Shown here: piece by piece, positions 1,030-64,000 of the stretch | Layout of the letters: each line of letters opens with the position of its first letter | How positions within the stretch are numbered: position 1 is the first letter of the stretch | Origin: Nilaparvata lugens | Lineage: Eukaryota; Arthropoda; Insecta; Hemiptera; Delphacidae | Assembly (NCBI RefSeq): GCF_014356525.2 | Contig: NC_052507.1 | Location: 3,770,509-3,834,508, forward strand | Direction: 5' to 3' | DNA length: 64,000 bases | The notes under the pieces: generated by a model | The model's input: only the letters and a program-made list of their open reading frames with translations | The model's database searches: none | Told to the model about the DNA's origin: nothing | Position numbers and translations under genes: made by a program

Positions 1030-52725
<51,696 letters not shown>

Positions 52726-52862
52726 TAGCAACAAAATCTTCAATATCAAATCCCTACTTTAGTGAGATATTTTATACATATCCAAACTATAAACATTCAT
52801 ACCTAATAATTGTATTTTTAAATTCACACGGTGTATGGTGAGATGTTGTGATACATGGTCTC

Positions 52863-53015
52863 GGTTGCATAAAATCCCCTTTAATTTTAATCATGGTTGA
52901 AAATGTCACAAGAAACAATCAGAGAAGTCATCTCATTAATATTATTCTCTCTGATTGGTTCTCAAGGTCTTTAATTATGATTAACATTCAACAGACTTCT
53001 GTGCAACCGGACCTT
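52863..53015. repeat. Palindromic MITE (CCCGGTTGCACAAAAGCC family) in the eva-1 3' region
   Basis: CGGTTGCATAAAATCCCC start, mirrored by ACTTCTGTGCAACCGGACC; inner ACAATCAGAGAAGTCATCTC / CTCTGATTGGTTCTC. Probably transcribed within the eva-1 3' UTR. Second copy at 58746-58899. Confidence 0.65.
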
Positions 53016-53084
53016 AAATATAAACTCAAGGAAGCATTCTAGACTCTATTATATCATATTGTCAACTATCACATTCATTTACAA

Positions 53085-53290
53085 AATAAATGAATAAATA
53101 TGGAATTATATTCTAAACTCTACATATTTCCATGCCTTTTTATCATCTTCAATGTGAGTTGAATACTGTAGCCCATATAAAACTATAATTTATCCAATTA
53201 ACACTTGGCACAGGAATGTTGTGAAATTTCTCCATATAAGATGAAATTAATGAAAACATATTGTTTAATGTATATTATTCTATGAATAAA
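53085..53290 (+). terminator. Candidate poly(A) signals for eva-1
   Basis: AATAAA hexamers at 53085-53090, 53093-53098 and 53285-53290, 360-565 bases after the eva-1 stop codon. A MITE (about 52863-53015) lies between stop and signals. The same hexamers recur in the second duplication copy. Which one is used cannot be told from sequence alone, since AATAAA is frequent in AT-rich DNA. Confidence 0.4.
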
Positions 53291-53540
53291 TGATGTGGCA
53301 TTGACAATATCTTTTCATTTCACCTTAATATAATTTATTCATACATACAATAAGTACATCATCAAAAATGATAGAGAGAAAAAAGGTAACCTTGTGCTAT
53401 TCCTTTCCCAAATTTAGATAAGATTACACGTAGTCCAAAATGGGTCAAGTCTTGTAGTTGTTAACTTCACAAAATTTTCAGCTCAAGCAAAAGCTGATTA
53501 AGTACCTCAAATTTAACTCTGACATTGAAGAAAGTTTTTT

Positions 53541-53695
53541 ACTTTCCTTGCCCTATTACCATAGTTAAGGAAAGTATTGCTTTCCGAAAAAAATTAAGGT
53601 ACTCCAATTTCTAAATTTCTATACGTTTCAAGGTCCCCTGAGTCCAAAAAGTGGTTTTTGGGTATTGGTCTGTATATGTGTGTGTGTGTGTGTGT

Positions 53696-53758
<63 letters not shown>

Positions 53759-54465
53759 TGTGTGGTGTGTGTGTGTGTGTGTGTGTGTGTGTTGTGTGTG
53801 TGTGTGTGTATGAGTGTATGTGCGTCTGTATACACGATATCTCATCTCTCAATCAACGTAATGACTTGAAATTTGGAACTTAAGGTCCTTACACTATAAG
53901 GATCCGACACGAACAATTTCGATCAATTGCAATTCAATATGGCGGCTAAAATGGCGGAAATGTTGTCAAAAGAGGTGTTTTCGCTATTTTCTCGAAAACG
54001 GCTCCAACGATTTTGATCAAGTTCATACCTAAAAAAGTCATTGATAAACTCTATCGACTGCCACAAGTCCCATATCTGTAAAAATTTCAGGAGCACCGCC
54101 CCATCTATGAAAAGTTTGATTTTAGATTCCCAATTATCAGTCTTCAGATACAATTTAAACTAGAAAAATTGAGTGGAAAAGATTCAGCATGAAAATCTCT
54201 ACAGTTTATGTTCAGTAACATTTACACCTAAAATTGAAAATAAGCTTTAAATTCGAGGAATGTGATTATTCAGTTGCAAATTATTGTCGATTCTATTAAA
54301 TCATTCACTATGAAGAGATAGCAGACTTCATGTGTGTCTCCAGCGTTATTGCCCTGTCACCAGCTGGCTCAAATCTTTGAATTGAGATGCGCGGGAACAC
54401 TAGCGTCAGGTGATCAATTTTCATAACGGCATGAAAGTTGTGTGAGTGCGCCATACCAGATTTTT
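53541..54465 (+). mobile_element. ACTTTCCTTGC element, copy 3, with TG microsatellite
   Basis: Start ACTTTCCTTGCCCTATTACC; TG repeat 53679-53817; ATGGCGG words; TTTTCTCGAAAACGGCTCCA; end GAAAGTTGTGTGAGTGCG then CATACCAGATTTTT. The TG repeat lies after CTGAGTCCAAAAA, as in other copies. Confidence 0.6.
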
Positions 54466-54489
54466 GAATTATTTCCACCTATCTATATA

Positions 54490-54989
54490 TGAGAAGGTTG
54501 TTTCCAAAAGGTACTATATCCATATTTTTAGCAAAATGTTTTTATTATTTTTTTGGGTAATATATTCCATTTATATGAGTTGAAGCTATTATTTTGTTCC
54601 AGAAAATTCTATTTCATGCATAAAACTGGCTTTAAAATAGCTGTTTCATATCAAAAGGTACTATATCCAATTTTCCAAAAAGTACTATTTCCATTTTGGT
54701 CCAAAAAGTACTATATCCCATACACGCATCACAAGCTTTCACATTCTCAAGCCAAAAAGTACTATATCCATGCTCTGAATATTGTTTAATCACTTGTGTT
54801 TCTTGAAATAAACCAATGAGGAGTATAATTTTGTGTTGGAAAGAATCTGTTGGCTGCACTGAAGTCAATCATATGATTTCTAGCGGGAATTGCTGATTGT
54901 TGTTTTAGCATTGAGGTTAAAAGTGTGTGTGGTCTGTGTACATATGTGCTCATCTTTATTTCCTGATTCATATATTTTTAAAGCAAGTT
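54490..54989 (+). mobile_element. Truncated left end of the DUF7869 transposon
   Basis: Identical in layout to 60374-60875: the 32-bp terminal repeat (54490-54521), five subterminal motif copies, then the sequence stops before the transposase start codon. No right end is attached. It is part of duplication copy 1 and not an independent non-autonomous element. Confidence 0.85.
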
Positions 54990-56532: not shown

Positions 56533-57041
56533 AAGTTGCAAAAAGTTACCAATGCTACATTAATTATATTAGATTTTTGAGTAGCAAAGACTACCTACAT
56601 GATCTATTTTGTTTGGTAAATTCGTTAATGTTGTTTCCTATCAAGAACTGCTTACTATTAAATTACCTTTTTGCTATTAAAAATAACGACCAGCAGTCTG
56701 ATTCGTTCAATAATTGAATTTATTGATTCACTACCTATGACAACGAGATCTTTCGGCAGATCCACCATCTTAAATAATGAATTCATTTTTCGAAAAAACA
56801 GTCTTCTAGTCGTTCTTTTTAGTACCTAGCAAAATAAGTGAAAATTAAATTTTTGCAAATTCAACATTTCCATGCATCTATGTTGCCTCAAATCTATACT
56901 TCTCGCTCCAATCAAATCCTCAATGCTAAAATTTTTTATTAGGCCTAATATGACAGACAAATAATATAATGAAGAAATCAATGAATGCCTTGTTTTTGTA
57001 AGATTTATTAGAATAAATAAGAAACATATCTGTATGAGACT
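56533..57041. other. End of the spacer between duplication copies
   Basis: No gene or repeat recognised apart from the TTTTTGCTATTAAAAAT word at 56670. Confidence 0.3.
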
Positions 57042-58539
57042 AGGATAAAGTGATATCTTGATATTCTTTGATACGACCATAGAATAAACAAAGTGTTAGG
57101 AGAAGATAATGAACTCACATCTTGACTTTTATATGACCATAGAATAACCAATCTATATATTGTTGGTTATCAATCTTGTTTTCACTATTATTATTACTAT
57201 TGTATTTAAATATAACTTTAAAGTGAAGAAACACTCACATTCTTTGGTGTTAAGACGACCGTTTCGTGCTGGTGTTGCACATTCTCAAGCCTGAGAATGT
57301 GAGTGTTTTTCCACTTTAAAGTTATATCAAAATACAATAGTTATAATCTATACCAGTAAGAGATGAGGATAAACTTACATAAGAAAAATGCCTGTATTCT
57401 ACAATCAGATCCGATAGTTGTGGCCTATCAAAAAACTTTACAATAATCGAGAGATTATAAAATTAATATTTTGAGAAGAAAAAGAAACATTTTAGTCTCT
57501 GTACTGTAGCCTTCAATAATTTATCAAAATGATTTCTACTTACCATACCGTATCCCTTGAGACATTTATTTTTATTGATATTATTTTCCATGATAATACA
57601 CTCTATAATAACTTTGTTCTAATAAAAACACTCCTCTTTGATGAGCTACTTTTACAAATTAATAAAGAAATATTGAAACTTTTGAAGTACCCTTTATTAT
57701 TTAAAATATATTACAACGACTAAATTCGTCCATAACTTAGGTCATTTTCGGGTTGAAATGTCAACATTCACATTTCAACTTGAAAATGACCCAAATGGTC
57801 GAAACTATAGTCGTTGTAATATTTTAAATAATAAAGGGTACTTCAAGTTTCAATATTGTTTTATAAATTTGTTTTAATGTTTATTTACGTTGATTAGAAA
57901 AAAAATTGATTAGAGATGAGGAATTGATTTCTTGTTGAATGAAAAAGACTAAGAAATTGTCAAAAAATCACAGATTTATTGATACTTAGAAAGACCGGTT
58001 TTGGTTATTACACCATTGTCAAACTGTGATAAACTCAGAGGAGTTTTAATATCAATGAATCTGTGGGTTTTTGACAATTTCTTAGTCTTTTTCATTCAAT
58101 ATGAATAATTACCACAATATCAACTTCTCAACTACACAAAAAGTGAAAATTAATTTCTTTCCTAGGAGTTGCTTTATCAGCCTCATGATATATAAATGAG
58201 CAGGATAAACCTCCTCCTTGAAGAGTTAAATGCATTCCAAATTTCTCATTGAAAAGAAAGATTTTTTATTTAATATCAAATCAAATTCAAAATTTCTAGT
58301 TTATTTATTTCTGGACTGAAAAGTGGACCCAAATCAATTCAAGTGGATAGCATAACCTATAATTTTTATTCATTCATAACTCTACCTTCATTATTGTATT
58401 ATCATACATCCCATCATCATCACCTAGGCTTAAAATACTTCTAGAAAGTCGCCTTTGTAAAATAATAAAAAATATATAATAAGTGTAATAACAGTTTCTA
58501 GATTGATTGAAGTTATATTTTTTAATATCTGTTTTTCAG

Positions 58540-58608
58540 GTAGTACGATTCAGTGCCCAAGGAACGAAGCCGCGAAGTTTGGGCCAAAGTTACTTCTACT
58601 ATGGATGA
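58540..58608 (+). CDS. Duplicate copy of eva-1 terminal exon
   Basis: Same acceptor context (GTTTTTCAG) and the same 69 coding bases as exon 8, carried by the second copy of the 3.8-kb duplication. It could serve as an alternative terminal exon, giving the same protein with a different 3' UTR, or be unused. No other eva-1 exon is duplicated in the window. Confidence 0.8.
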   Translation, partial: VVRFSAQGTKPRSLGQSYFYYG

Positions 58609-59424
58609 TAGCAACAAAATCTTCAATATCAAATCCCTACTTTAGTGAGATATTTTATACATATCCAAACTATAAACATTCATACCTAATAATTGTATTT
58701 TTAAATTCACACGGTGTATGGTGAGATGTTGTGATACATGGTCTCGGTTGCATAAAATCCCCTTTAATTTTAATCATGGTTGAAAATGTCACAAGAAACA
58801 ATCAGAGAAGTCATCTCATTAATATTATTCTCTCTGATTGGTTCTCAAGGTCTTTAATTATGATTAACATTCAACAGACTTCTGTGCAACCGGACCTTAA
58901 ATATAAACTCAAGGAAGCATTCTAGACTCTATTATATCATATTGTCAACTATCACATTCATTTACAAAATAAATGAATAAATATGGAATTATATTCTAAA
59001 CTCTACATATTTCCATGCCTTTTTATCATCTTCAATGTGAGTTGAATACTGTAGCCCATATAAAACTATAATTTATCCAATTAACACTTGGCACAGGAAT
59101 GTTGTGAAATTTCTCCATATTAAGATGAAATTAATGAAAACATATTGTTTAATGTATATTATTCTATGAATAAATGATGTGGCATTGACAATATCTTTTC
59201 ATTTCACCTTAATATAATTTATTCATACATACAATAAGTACATCATCAAAAATGATAGAGAGAAAAAAGGTAACCTTGTGCTATTCCTTTCCCAAATTTA
59301 GATAAGATTACACGTAGTCCAAAATGGGTCAAGTCTTGTAGTTGTTAACTTCACAAAATTTTCAGCTCAAGCAAAAGCTGATTAAGTACCTCAAATTTAA
59401 CTCTGACATTGAAGAAAGTTTTTT

Positions 59425-59560
59425 ACTTTCCTTGCCCTATTACCATAGTTAAGGAAAGTATTGCTTTCCGAAAAAAATTAAGGTACTCCAATTTCTAAAT
59501 TTCTATACGTTTCAAGGTCCCCTGAGTCCAAAAAAGTGGTTTTTGGGTATTGGTCTGTAT

Positions 59561-59593
<33 letters not shown>

Positions 59594-60349
59594 ATGAGTG
59601 TATGTGTGTGTGTGTGGTGTGTGTGTGTGTGTGTGTGTGTTGTGTGTGTGTGTGGTGTGTGTGTGTGTGTGTGTGTTGTGTGTGTGTGTGTATGAGTGTA
59701 TGTGCGTCTGTATACACGATATCTCATCTCTCAATCAACGTAATGACTTGAAATTTGGAACTTAAGGTCCTTACACTATAAGGATCCGACACGAACAATT
59801 TCGATCAATTGCAATTCAATATGGCGGCTAAAATGGCGGAAATGTTGTCAAAAAGAGGTGTTTTCGCTATTTTCTCGAAAACGGCTCCAACGATTTTGAT
59901 CAAGTTCATACCTAAAAAAGTCATTGATAAACTCTATCGACTGCCACAAGTCCCATATCTGTAAAAATTTCAGGAGCACCGCCCCATCTATGAAAAGTTT
60001 GATTTTAGATTCCCAATTATCAGTCTTCAGATACAATTTAAACTAGAAAAATTGAGTGGAAAAGATTCAGCATGAAAATCTCTACAGTTTATGTTCAGTA
60101 ACATTTACACCTAAAATTGAAAATAAGCTTTAAATTCGAGGAAATGTGATTATTCAGTTGCAAATTATTGTCGATTCTATTAAATCATTCACTATGAAGA
60201 GATAGCAGACTTCATGTGTGTCTCCAGCGTTATTGCCCTGTCACCAGCTGGCTCAAATCTTTGAATTGAGATGCGCGGGAACACTAGCGTCAGGTGATCA
60301 ATTTTCATAACGGCATGAAAGTTGTGTGAGTGCGCCATACCAGATTTTT
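59425..60349 (+). mobile_element. ACTTTCCTTGC element, copy 5
   Basis: Duplicate of 53541-54465. The TG repeat region is rearranged (a TATGAGTGTATG word appears twice), the fastest-changing part of the duplication. Confidence 0.6.
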
Positions 60350-60365
60350 GAATTATTTCCACCTA

Positions 60366-60373
60366 TCTATATA
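60366..60373 (+). mobile_element. Detached head of Helitron-like copy 4
   Basis: TCTATATA immediately left of the DUF7869 transposon, continuing at 63473 as TATATAAAAGCGAAATAGC. TATATA (60368-60373) is repeated at 63473-63478, so the transposon landed in the TA-rich head of the Helitron. Confidence 0.55.
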
Positions 60374-60405
60374 TGAGAAGGTTGTTTCCAAAAGGTACTA
60401 TATCC
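60374..60405 (+). repeat. Left terminal inverted repeat of the DUF7869 transposon
   Basis: TGAGAAGGTTGTTTCCAAAA then GGTACTATATCC. Perfect inverse of 63441-63472. Its last 18 bases are one copy of the subterminal motif. Confidence 0.9.
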
Positions 60406-60654
60406 ATATTTTTAGCAAAATGTTTTTATTATTTTTTTGGGTAATATATTCCATTTTATATGAGTTGAAGCTATTATTTTGTTCCAGAAAATTCTATTTC
60501 ATGCATAAAACTGGCTTTAAAATAGCTGTTTCATATCAAAAGGTACTATATCCAATTTTCCAAAAAGTACTATTTCCATTTTGGTCCAAAAAGTACTATA
60601 TCCCATACACGCATCACAAGCTTTCACATTCTCAAGCCAAAAAGTACTATATCC
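60388..60654 (+). promoter_or_regulatory. Left subterminal motif cluster (five copies)
   Basis: Copies of CCAAAAAGTACTATATCC at 60388-60405, 60537-60553, 60560-60577 (TATTTCC variant), 60586-60603 and 60637-60654, all on the plus strand. Clustered subterminal repeats are commonly transposase binding sites; that role is inferred. They also lie upstream of the gene and could influence its transcription. Confidence 0.75.
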
Positions 60655-60941
60655 ATGCTCTGAATATTGTTTAATCACTTGTGTTTCTTGAAATAAACCA
60701 ATGAGGAGTATAATTTTTGTGTTGGAAAGAATCTGTTGGCTGCACTGAAGTCAATCATATGATTTCTAGCGGGAATTGCTGATTGTTGTTTTAGCATTGA
60801 GGTTAAAAGTGTGTGTGGTCTGTGTACATATGTGCTCATCTTTATTTCCTGATTCATATATTTTTAAAGCAAGTTCAGTTGAAAGTGATAGTTTTAATAT
60901 GTAATTTAAATTGTCCTTGTTCAGTATACATAGATTTCAAA

Positions 60942-62753
60942 ATGCCTAGCAGTGAACTTCATTGTGATAGTGATGAAGACAGGTGGGACTACTGCAGAGA
61001 AACAGAGAAGCCAAGGAAACGTAAGTCAGATCCAAGCAAGTGGGCGAAAAATGTCAGTAAAGCAAAGAAGAAAGAAGCTAGGGATAAGGACTGTTTTATA
61101 GACTGTGAACACAATACAAATTTCTGTAAAGCGAAAACTATCAATGAAGAGACAATGAAATTTTTTCATGAAAAATATAAAAACCTTACTTCTGCTGTCG
61201 ATGAAAGAAAATTCATACAGAGACAAATTACTGTATCACAAGTGAAAAGGAGACGTGTGGATGAAGATGCTGCTTCAAAGGAAGCAATCAATTTCCATAA
61301 ATTGTTTTATTCAAGGTCCTGAGGGTCCTATCCCTGTTTGTAAAAAGACGTTTATGAGTATTCTGTTAATAGGTCGGCGAAAAATTGAAATTGCTGCAAA
61401 ACAAATCTCTATTGCTGATGAATCAATGACTGAGAGAAGAGGTGGAGCTAGAGTTTCTTGTTTTCAACTCAACAGACGGAAGAAAATCATCGAACATATA
61501 AGTGAATTCAAGTGTAAGGAAAAACATTATGGTAGAAACAATGCACCAGGGCGAGCTTATCTTCCATCCAGTTTATCAATTCGAAAAATGTGGGAAATGT
61601 ACAAAGAAAAATGTAATGATGAGAACTGTAAATATGGTATCTACTGGAATGTTTTTACCCACAATTTTAATTTGGGATTCGGTACTAATAAAACAGACGT
61701 TTGTAGTGAGTGTGTCAGTCTTAAAGTTAAACGAAAAATGGAAACTGATATTGAGAAGAAAAAGGTGTTACTGGTGCAGCTTTTAGTGCATAAGAAAAGA
61801 GCAGCAGTATTCTACAAGGAACTGAATGTGAGACCACAGAAGACTATTACTATAGTTTTTGATTTGATGCAAAATCAGCCTCTGCCAAGAACTGAGATTG
61901 GCGAATCTTTTTACTCTCGCCAAATGTGGTATTACATATTTGGTATTGTAATACATGATAATACGTCAACACTAACCAAGCAAAATGTTCATTTCTACAG
62001 ATGGCTTGAATCAAACTATGGGAGAGGCTGTAATGAAATTGTCTCATGTGTGTGGCACTTTCTGAATAGGGTTTTACCCAATATAGTTGGAGGTCCAATA
62101 GAATCAATAGAAGAGCTCCGTGTATTTTGTGACAGCTGTGTAGGACAAAATAAGAACTATACAATGCTCTTCTTGCTGATGAAATACTGCCTTAAAGTGA
62201 GTCTTAATTTGAAATGGACATTTCCTGTAAGAGGACATTCTTATCTCCCGGCGGATCGTGCGTTTGGACTTGTAGAAAAGAAGATGAGAAAACTACAAAA
62301 CGTTATTGATCCCAGACCATATGATGAGATCCTATCATCTATTGGGACACTTCACACTAGAGATGTGATTATTCAAAACTGGAAAGACTCTGTGCAACCT
62401 ATTTGAAAGCAAATAAGGGTTTCAATATTAGGGATGCCAAAGTGATTACATTTAAATTCAAGAATCCATCACAAGTGAACGTTAGGCAGTTCTACACGGA
62501 AGGCGCAGGTACTGAGCATTCTATTTTAAAAAGTAAGTTCAAAAATGTTTCAAAAGTTACTTTGCCACTTCGACAAGTGAAGAAATGCAATCACATGTCT
62601 GTTGACAAGATTAAGGACGTAAAAACGCTCTTGCAGAAATTGGGTATAAACTGGCAAGATCATCAATTTTTCAGAGATTGTCTATCTGCTCAAGAAGTGC
62701 CAGGCAATAATGATTCAGATGATATAGATGTTATGAATGAGGATCTTTTTTAA
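60942..62753 (+). pseudogene. DUF7869-type putative transposase, broken by two frameshifts
   Basis: About 600 codons in three frame segments: 60942-61322, about 61310-62395, about 62395-62753. Start ATG at 60942 (AAAATGC); TAA at 62751. N-terminal part: basic region KPRKRKSDPSKWAKNVSKAK, then an early CEHNTNFC motif. Middle: NFNLGFGTNKTDVCSECVSL (zinc-binding-like Cys pair) and a Lys-rich helix. DUF7869 core: FDLMQNQPLPRTEIG (Asp at 61861), FYSRQMWYY, CDSCVGQNKN (Asp at 62131), FPVRGHSYLPADRAFGLVE (Asp at 62254, Glu at 62275). D-D spacing of about 90 and D-D/E of 41-48 residues recall RNase H-fold DDE/D transposases; this catalytic reading is inference. Both breaks look like single-base shifts with overlapping frames, not introns: recent inactivation or assembly error. 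Confidence 0.8.
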
Positions 62754-63186
62754 ATCTTGAATAATATTCATTAATATCGTTTGTATTCAACATTTTCACA
62801 TTATTTCTACAGTATCTGCCATGAAATTAGAGTGCAATAATAAAATACCATGATAATATTTTTAAAAAGTGGTCAATCGAATTTATTTTTCTACATACGA
62901 GATAATAGATTATTATTTGAATTTTTTATCCATGAGAAACTGAAAAGTTTCATTGAGTTTTTCATCACATTAACAACCTCAATTTTGTGAGGAAAATATG
63001 TTTTGAGTGAATATTTACTAATATTTTCACTTAGAAAACTAAAAGTTATTAATAGAGATGAGAACCTTGAGCGATATATTTGAATATATTTTTAATGAAG
63101 AATAAATTTGGTCCAATGTTTTAAGCTAACACAGATTGCTAGCTTTTTAAACGAGCCCTCTTCTCAATAATGATTCTCTTATGTTT
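62754..63186. other. 3' non-coding part of the DUF7869 transposon
   Basis: AATAAT/AATAAA at 62838-62843 (CAATAATAAAATACC) may serve as a poly(A) signal about 85 bases after the stop. Otherwise AT-rich sequence up to the right subterminal cluster. Confidence 0.4.
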
Positions 63187-63262
63187 CAAAATGTACTATA
63201 TCCTTCTAGTTTTATTCCAAAAAGTACTATATACTAATTAAAAACCAAAAAGTACTATATCC
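63187..63262 (+). promoter_or_regulatory. Right subterminal motif cluster (three copies)
   Basis: Copies at 63187-63203 (AATGTAC variant), 63217-63234 (TATATAC variant) and 63245-63262, again on the plus strand, while the terminal copy (63441-63458) is inverted. The right end is therefore not a mirror image of the left in its internal sites. Confidence 0.75.
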
Positions 63263-63440
63263 AAGAATTTCCAATTAGTTTTTTATTTTTATTAATTTTA
63301 GTAGTCGTGATATAATAAAAGTGTATATTTAAATGACAATAACAATTCATGCCGATTCGTTTGAACATATTATCAAAATAAGTATTATTACTCCTAATTG
63401 TTGAGAGGAATTAATCATATCCTGAAATTTTTCACCAAAC

Positions 63441-63472
63441 GGATATAGTACCTTTTGGAAACAACCTTCTCA
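63441..63472 (-). repeat. Right terminal inverted repeat of the DUF7869 transposon
   Basis: GGATATAGTACC then TTTTGGAAACAACCTTCTCA on the plus strand; perfect inverse of the left end. Followed by TATATA. Confidence 0.9.
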
Positions 63473-64000
63473 TATATAAAAGCGAAATAGCACTCACTCA
63501 CTGACTGACTCACTCACTCACTCACTCACTCACTCACTCGCATAACTAAAAATCTACCGGACCAAAAACGTTCAAATTTTGTTGGTATGTTCAGTTGGCC
63601 CTTTAGAGGCGCACTAAGAAATCTTTTGGCAATATTTTAACTCTAAGGGTTGTTTTTAAGGGTTTAAAGTTCGTCTTTTAGCATGTATATTCTTCTTCTC
63701 CCAATCTCTTAATTATAATTGAAATTTCCATATCATATGTTACTATAGAACTATAATCTAGATAGAGTACCTCTTCGAAACAGTTGTTAACTGGCAACTA
63801 AATTAATAATTTTGTCTGGTTGGCATTAAGTTGAGTTGACTTTGTTAGGTTGGCACCAAGTTGAAGATTCACGAGTAAATGCATTCATCGCGGAAAAATT
63901 GATTGGGTACTGCTACTTCAATCCTGGGAATATTATATTACTAGCCGTCAGGCTCGCTTCGCTCGCCATATCCGTATAGCCAGACGTTTAGTCTGGACCC
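63473..64000 (+). mobile_element. Helitron-like element copy 4, body (cut by window end)
   Basis: TATATAAAAGCGAAATAGC head, CACT/GACT words, CTACCGGACCAAAAACG and GGCCCTTTAGAGGCGCACT blocks, and the left foldback arm CCGTCAGGCTCGCTTCGCTC. The CTAG end lies beyond the window. Confidence 0.65.

Follow-up and report, generated by a model that had tools for sequence, protein, structure and literature searches.

A DUF7869 protein as the probable DDD transposase of an element with terminal inverted repeats in Nilaparvata lugens

A stretch of 64,000 nucleotides from the Nilaparvata lugens genome was analyzed (NCBI RefSeq assembly GCF_014356525.2, contig NC_052507.1, positions 3,770,509 to 3,834,508 of the forward strand; hereafter the window, in which all positions are counted). 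At 60374-63472 it contains an element bounded by perfect terminal inverted repeats (TIRs), in which the only gene recognised encodes a protein of the DUF7869 type. We consider, with a probability of roughly 0.9, that this element is a cut-and-paste DNA transposon and that the DUF7869 protein is its transposase, a DDD enzyme (three catalytic aspartates) with an RNase H fold of the integrase/mariner type. The role of DUF7869 as a transposase is well supported by computation, from the observed ends, motif clusters, full-length but frame-broken gene and conserved acidic residues, together with a predicted fold. An earlier note, made from the letters of this DNA, had proposed a TIR transposon with the DUF7869 protein as its transposase, and the TIRs, the sole recognised gene, the predicted fold and the conserved acids all support that proposal.

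Ends and insertion site of the element

The two ends form a perfect inverted repeat of 38 nt (60368-60405 and 63441-63478, 100% complementary), which consists of 32 bp of TIR and TATATA on each side.

60374-60405, + strand: left TIR, 32 bp (38 bp including TATATA)
63441-63472, - strand: right TIR, 32 bp
60368-60373: left TATATA, a palindromic TA tract, which is either a duplicated target site (2, 4 or 6 bp) or the outermost part of the inverted repeat
63473-63478: right TATATA, adjoining the right TIR

Dinucleotide shuffling of positions 60000-64000 (100 rounds, arms more than 1 kb apart) produced perfect inverted repeats of no more than 14 nt, and the 32-bp perfect TIRs of the earlier note are thus borne out. 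The same note had TATATA on both flanks; it is indeed present at both ends. A target duplication of 6 bp does not follow from it, because TATATA is its own reverse complement, and we did not accept such a duplication since the flanks sit inside a TA tract.

The right flank is the start of an interspersed repeat with three further copies in the window (at 22412 on the - strand, 27580 and 36274 on the + strand).

22276-22412, 27580-27720, 36274-36411 and 63472-63600: copies of the interspersed repeat, which starts with a TA tract and simple repeats resembling CACTCACTGACTGACT; the last copy contains the element

Each of the three other copies shows the TA tract followed by AAGCGAAATGGCACTC, and none carries the element at the equivalent point. 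When joined without the element, the flanks read ATC(TA)nAAAGCG and resemble the copy at 36274, which indicates that the element was inserted in the TA tract of this repeat.

Part of the left end occurs twice in the window.

54484-54989, + strand: duplicate of the element's left 506 bp, including TATATA, within a local duplication that also holds 3.35 kb of left flank

This second copy was rejected as an independent insertion, and gives no independent support, because the 3.35 kb of left flank was duplicated along with it. The duplicated regions (51133-54989 and 57016-60875) are 98.3% identical over 3.87 kb, with 46 substitutions and 13 gap events. The 2-kb spacer has no copy to the left of the first unit, so this is not a plain tandem duplication; it is a recent rearrangement or an assembly fault. 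Its breakpoint lies inside the element, so the locus is rearranged or misassembled, which would favour the view that unrelated end-like sequences came to surround a gene by chance or through an assembly artefact. Against this stand the 38-bp repeat, compared with at most 14 nt in the shuffles, and the three copies of the right-flank repeat that lack the element, and we regard such an origin as extremely improbable.

Subterminal motifs

The subterminal motif clusters described in the earlier note were also recovered. The window has 11 occurrences of the 12-mer GGTACTATATCC (at most one mismatch), where 0.20 are expected; seven lie inside the element and four in the duplicated left-end fragment. 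The 18-bp motif CCAAAARGTACTATATCC (at most two mismatches) has nine copies in the element.

60388-60654, + strand: left cluster of CCAAAARGTACTATATCC, with copies at 60388, 60536, 60560, 60586 and 60637 (0-1 mismatch); putative transposase binding sites
63186-63262, + strand: right subterminal CCAAAARGTACTATATCC copies at 63186, 63217 and 63245 (0-2 mismatches), opposed to the right terminal copy
63441, - strand: right terminal CCAAAARGTACTATATCC copy, within the TIR

Since the subterminal motifs are in + orientation near both ends, the motif sets of the two ends are not mirror images of each other. The ends are therefore non-equivalent outside the TIRs, and the transposase could conceivably assemble on them in an end-specific way.

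The DUF7869 gene

The interior holds a single recognised gene, for one protein of about 600 amino acids split over three overlapping frames, which were compared with a family profile of 594 positions built from an alignment of 115 rows (A2).

60942-61322, + strand: first frame, with ATG at 60942; profile positions 7-98
61246-62406, + strand: second frame; profile positions 94-465, with the conserved CxxC...H residues and the predicted RNase H catalytic domain
62361-62753, + strand: third frame; profile positions 459-584, the C-terminal end of the protein

The three frames match the one profile in consecutive order, and no intron is required. The single gene that the earlier note saw filling the interior is thus confirmed, though with two frame changes, which may be real or assembly errors. 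In the left duplicated region, five of the eight one-base gaps between the two copies fall in homopolymers. This copy of the element is probably dead. The N-terminal helices of the second frame (residues 32-39 and 43-54), as modelled, may form a helix-turn-helix.

The second frame matches Pfam DUF7869 (PF25273) at 25.7 bits (E = 9.9e-6), just below the curated cut-off of 26, and the domain was found at E <= 0.1 in 59 of 60 relatives (set A1), with 34.7 bits for the first of them. The assignment of the gene product to the DUF7869 type in the earlier note therefore holds. The Pfam name carries no function. In the relative P0004 the match covers residues 340-487, and residue 306, the first of the proposed catalytic aspartates, lies outside it.

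Catalytic residues and predicted fold

Conservation was analyzed over 320 rows. Three protein searches gave the best 120 of 122, 154 and 135 matches, or 320 proteins combined; one of these, shorter than 250 amino acids, was dropped and the window protein was added. Rows picked by similarity favour conservation, but the contrast between D336 and E343 lies within the same rows and is unaffected.

61861-61863, + strand: proposed catalytic Asp 1, D205 in the second frame; D in all 315 lettered rows, at the predicted end of the first strand
62131-62133, + strand: proposed catalytic Asp 2, D295; D in 311 of 314, just past the predicted fourth strand
62254-62256, + strand: proposed catalytic Asp 3, D336; D in 312 of 315, at the start of the predicted helix after the fifth strand

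The earlier note had proposed a triad of acidic residues encoded at 61861, 62131 and either 62254 or 62275. All four codons are located as it said, and the first two stand. Conservation over the 320 rows favours the Asp at 62254 as the third acid, giving DDD, and the Glu at 62275 (position 343) was rejected: Glu stands there in 189 of 313 rows, and in a second, deeper clade (123 rows) three have it and most others carry G, S, R or K, whereas 120 have Asp at D336. In the window protein 89 residues separate Asp 1 from Asp 2 and 40 residues separate Asp 2 from Asp 3, the latter spacing being 40-44 over the 115 A2 rows. Four other residues are near-invariant (D150 in 305 of 306 rows, C152 in 302 of 306, C155 in 305 of 306 and H181 in 309 of 312), and may form a metal site that lies outside the catalytic core. 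Conserved QNxN and GHS motifs are also present in the family.

The earlier note had named an RNase H fold as the check on its proposal, and the predicted models (structure matches re-ranked by VIA-align) show RNase H topology with the three conserved acids. Under the transposase reading, the repeated CCAAAARGTACTATATCC motif, within the TIRs and next to them, would be the binding site of the DUF7869 protein, which would pair the two ends and excise the element, most likely by cut-and-paste as other DDE/D transposons do. Catalysis would depend on a triad of D205, D295 and D336 (codons 61861, 62131 and 62254) in the predicted RNase H-fold domain, and the element would have inserted into AT-rich DNA, so that 2, 4 or 6 bp of the TA tract became duplicated.

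DUF7869 could also be a passenger or host gene, with the real transposase supplied from elsewhere. Passenger genes are known in TIR elements, as in the capture of Fanzor1 proteins by Sola2 elements (PMC3627910), and a single copy of the element was looked at. Against this, the protein has conserved acids and a predicted fold of the integrase/transposase type, no other gene was recognised within the element, and some animals carry several copies of the family; we think a passenger very improbable.

Several results weigh against the transposase reading. Foldseek returned no match at E <= 0.001 for either model, and none turned up in a viral structure library queried with the model of P0004. The VIA-align rows listed for the model, which include Mos1 and integrases, only re-rank Foldseek's own list, and many span several domains, which brings their rmsd to about 10 or above. 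Among Pfam transposase families compared with the 60 A1 members, the best was DDE_1 in one member (E = 0.079); among NCBIfam transposase families none reached E <= 0.01, and A1 matched nothing in a PDB search by sequence. Target duplications of 2, 4 and 6 bp are all compatible with the TA tract, and the gene of this copy is interrupted by its frame changes. No second independent insertion with the same ends was seen in the window, so ends and gene are linked through a single copy only. No biochemical evidence was found.

Some further profile matches were taken as chance, namely single-frame Pfam matches such as DUF2800 (E = 0.0042) and ZSWIM1-3_RNaseH-like (E = 0.066), RWP-RK in one of the 60 relatives (E = 0.001) and three NCBIfam matches in one member apiece (E = 0.0016-0.0058). 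The PDB search with the window frame gave a single match, to a cell-division protein (E = 1.2).

Relatives and their spread

Among the matches listed, 36 carry a species name and all are from animals. The hosts are beetles, butterflies, a leafhopper, a mealybug, a psyllid, wasps, a sawfly, an ant, a stick insect, a cockroach and an orthopteran, and further a springtail, a sea spider, a brittle star, a sea slug and three fish. Database labels describe these relatives as uncharacterised or hypothetical genes. With A1 as a query, no locus was confirmed in viral contigs (0 out of 85 pattern matches) or in prokaryote contigs (0 out of 69); phage records searched with P0004 held no relative at E <= 0.01, and the end and motif patterns were found in neither viral nor prokaryote contigs (0 in each).

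A tree was built from 38 rows, namely the window, P0001, P0004 and 35 of the 36 proteins that bear a species name; P0120 was omitted for its short match. The four Callosobruchus chinensis proteins scatter to three places, and one of them, P0160, is sister to P0139 of the leafhopper Homalodisca vitripennis (local support 0.995). The pair shares 72% identity over 608 positions, counting a 48-residue gap, and splits within one species are deeper. Such scatter and so close a beetle-leafhopper pair are usual for mobile genes and suggest horizontal transfer, contamination of an assembly being another possibility.

If these proteins are transposases, the DUF7869 "host genes" predicted in animals would be mobile elements, Pfam DUF7869 would have an assigned function, with DDD as its catalytic set, and an intact relative would allow direct tests of the family.

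Superfamily membership

The earlier note proposed a candidate undescribed superfamily, which as stated is not supported. Elements of the known Sola superfamily are described as encoding a DDD transposase, making 4-bp target duplications, being mostly 2-9 kb long and having TIRs of 11-1124 bp (PMC10741241), and the 4-bp duplications of Sola2 are AT-rich (AWWT, e.g., ATAT; PMC3627910). We see an even chance that the element belongs to Sola, with Sola2 as the best candidate, and that DUF7869 is the Pfam name for Sola-type transposases. Compared with Sola1, Sola2 and Sola3 as these sources describe them, the element is alike in DDD, size (3.1 kb) and TIRs (32-38 bp), and its TA tract would allow an AT-rich 4-bp duplication (TATA or ATAT). 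However, the comparison was one of descriptions, and the shared features are general ones that fit other groups too. A published classification of RNase H-like proteins places Sola in the RNases H1 clade, apart from the Mos1/retroviral integrase clade (PMC3985635), whereas the matches listed for our model are Mos1 and integrases; this argument is weak because a structure list is no phylogeny. Likewise, Sola is reported as abundant in Culex quinquefasciatus (PMC7728395) and no mosquito is among the 36 species-named matches listed, a weak point because few matches are named and each list covers the best 120 of its set.

That DUF7869 instead represents a DNA-transposon superfamily distinct from the roughly 20 named ones is possible, at somewhat under even odds. 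It is favoured by the 60 members without a significant Pfam or NCBIfam transposase match and by two deep clades that both keep the DDD set. The comparison covered families modelled in Pfam and NCBIfam, with Sola by description only, and we know of no Pfam model for Sola. Neither DUF7869 nor PF25273 is mentioned in the literature searched, which says little because the Pfam name is recent. The searched literature gave two papers for QNKN plus transposition, unrelated to the family by their listing, and nothing recognised as the DUF7869 family for new superfamilies. The fuller claim, an unnamed animal-wide DDD superfamily of at least two deep clades, spread horizontally between insect orders and separate from Sola and all named superfamilies, is a shade more doubtful and is put forward tentatively. 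If the family is not Sola, the eukaryotic DNA transposons would include one superfamily more.

Other known groups also differ from the element. For Tc1/mariner (Mos1, SETMAR) the only Pfam profile match is the single DDE_1 hit given above; the element's protein has 40 residues between the second and third Asp, and to our knowledge the QNxN and GHS motifs and the CxxC...H set of DUF7869 are not expected of mariner. The third acid of retroviral integrases is Glu, whereas that of DUF7869 is Asp; the integrase rows of VIA-align show 7-13% identity, and no reverse transcriptase or long terminal repeats were recognised in the element. Kolobok and piggyBac are defined by a TTAA target duplication (PMC9587614), in contrast to the TATATA flanks found here.

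Elsewhere in the window, a non-LTR retrotransposon was detected at 11748-15981 on the - strand, in three frames with PRE_C2HC gag-like, endonuclease and reverse transcriptase domains.
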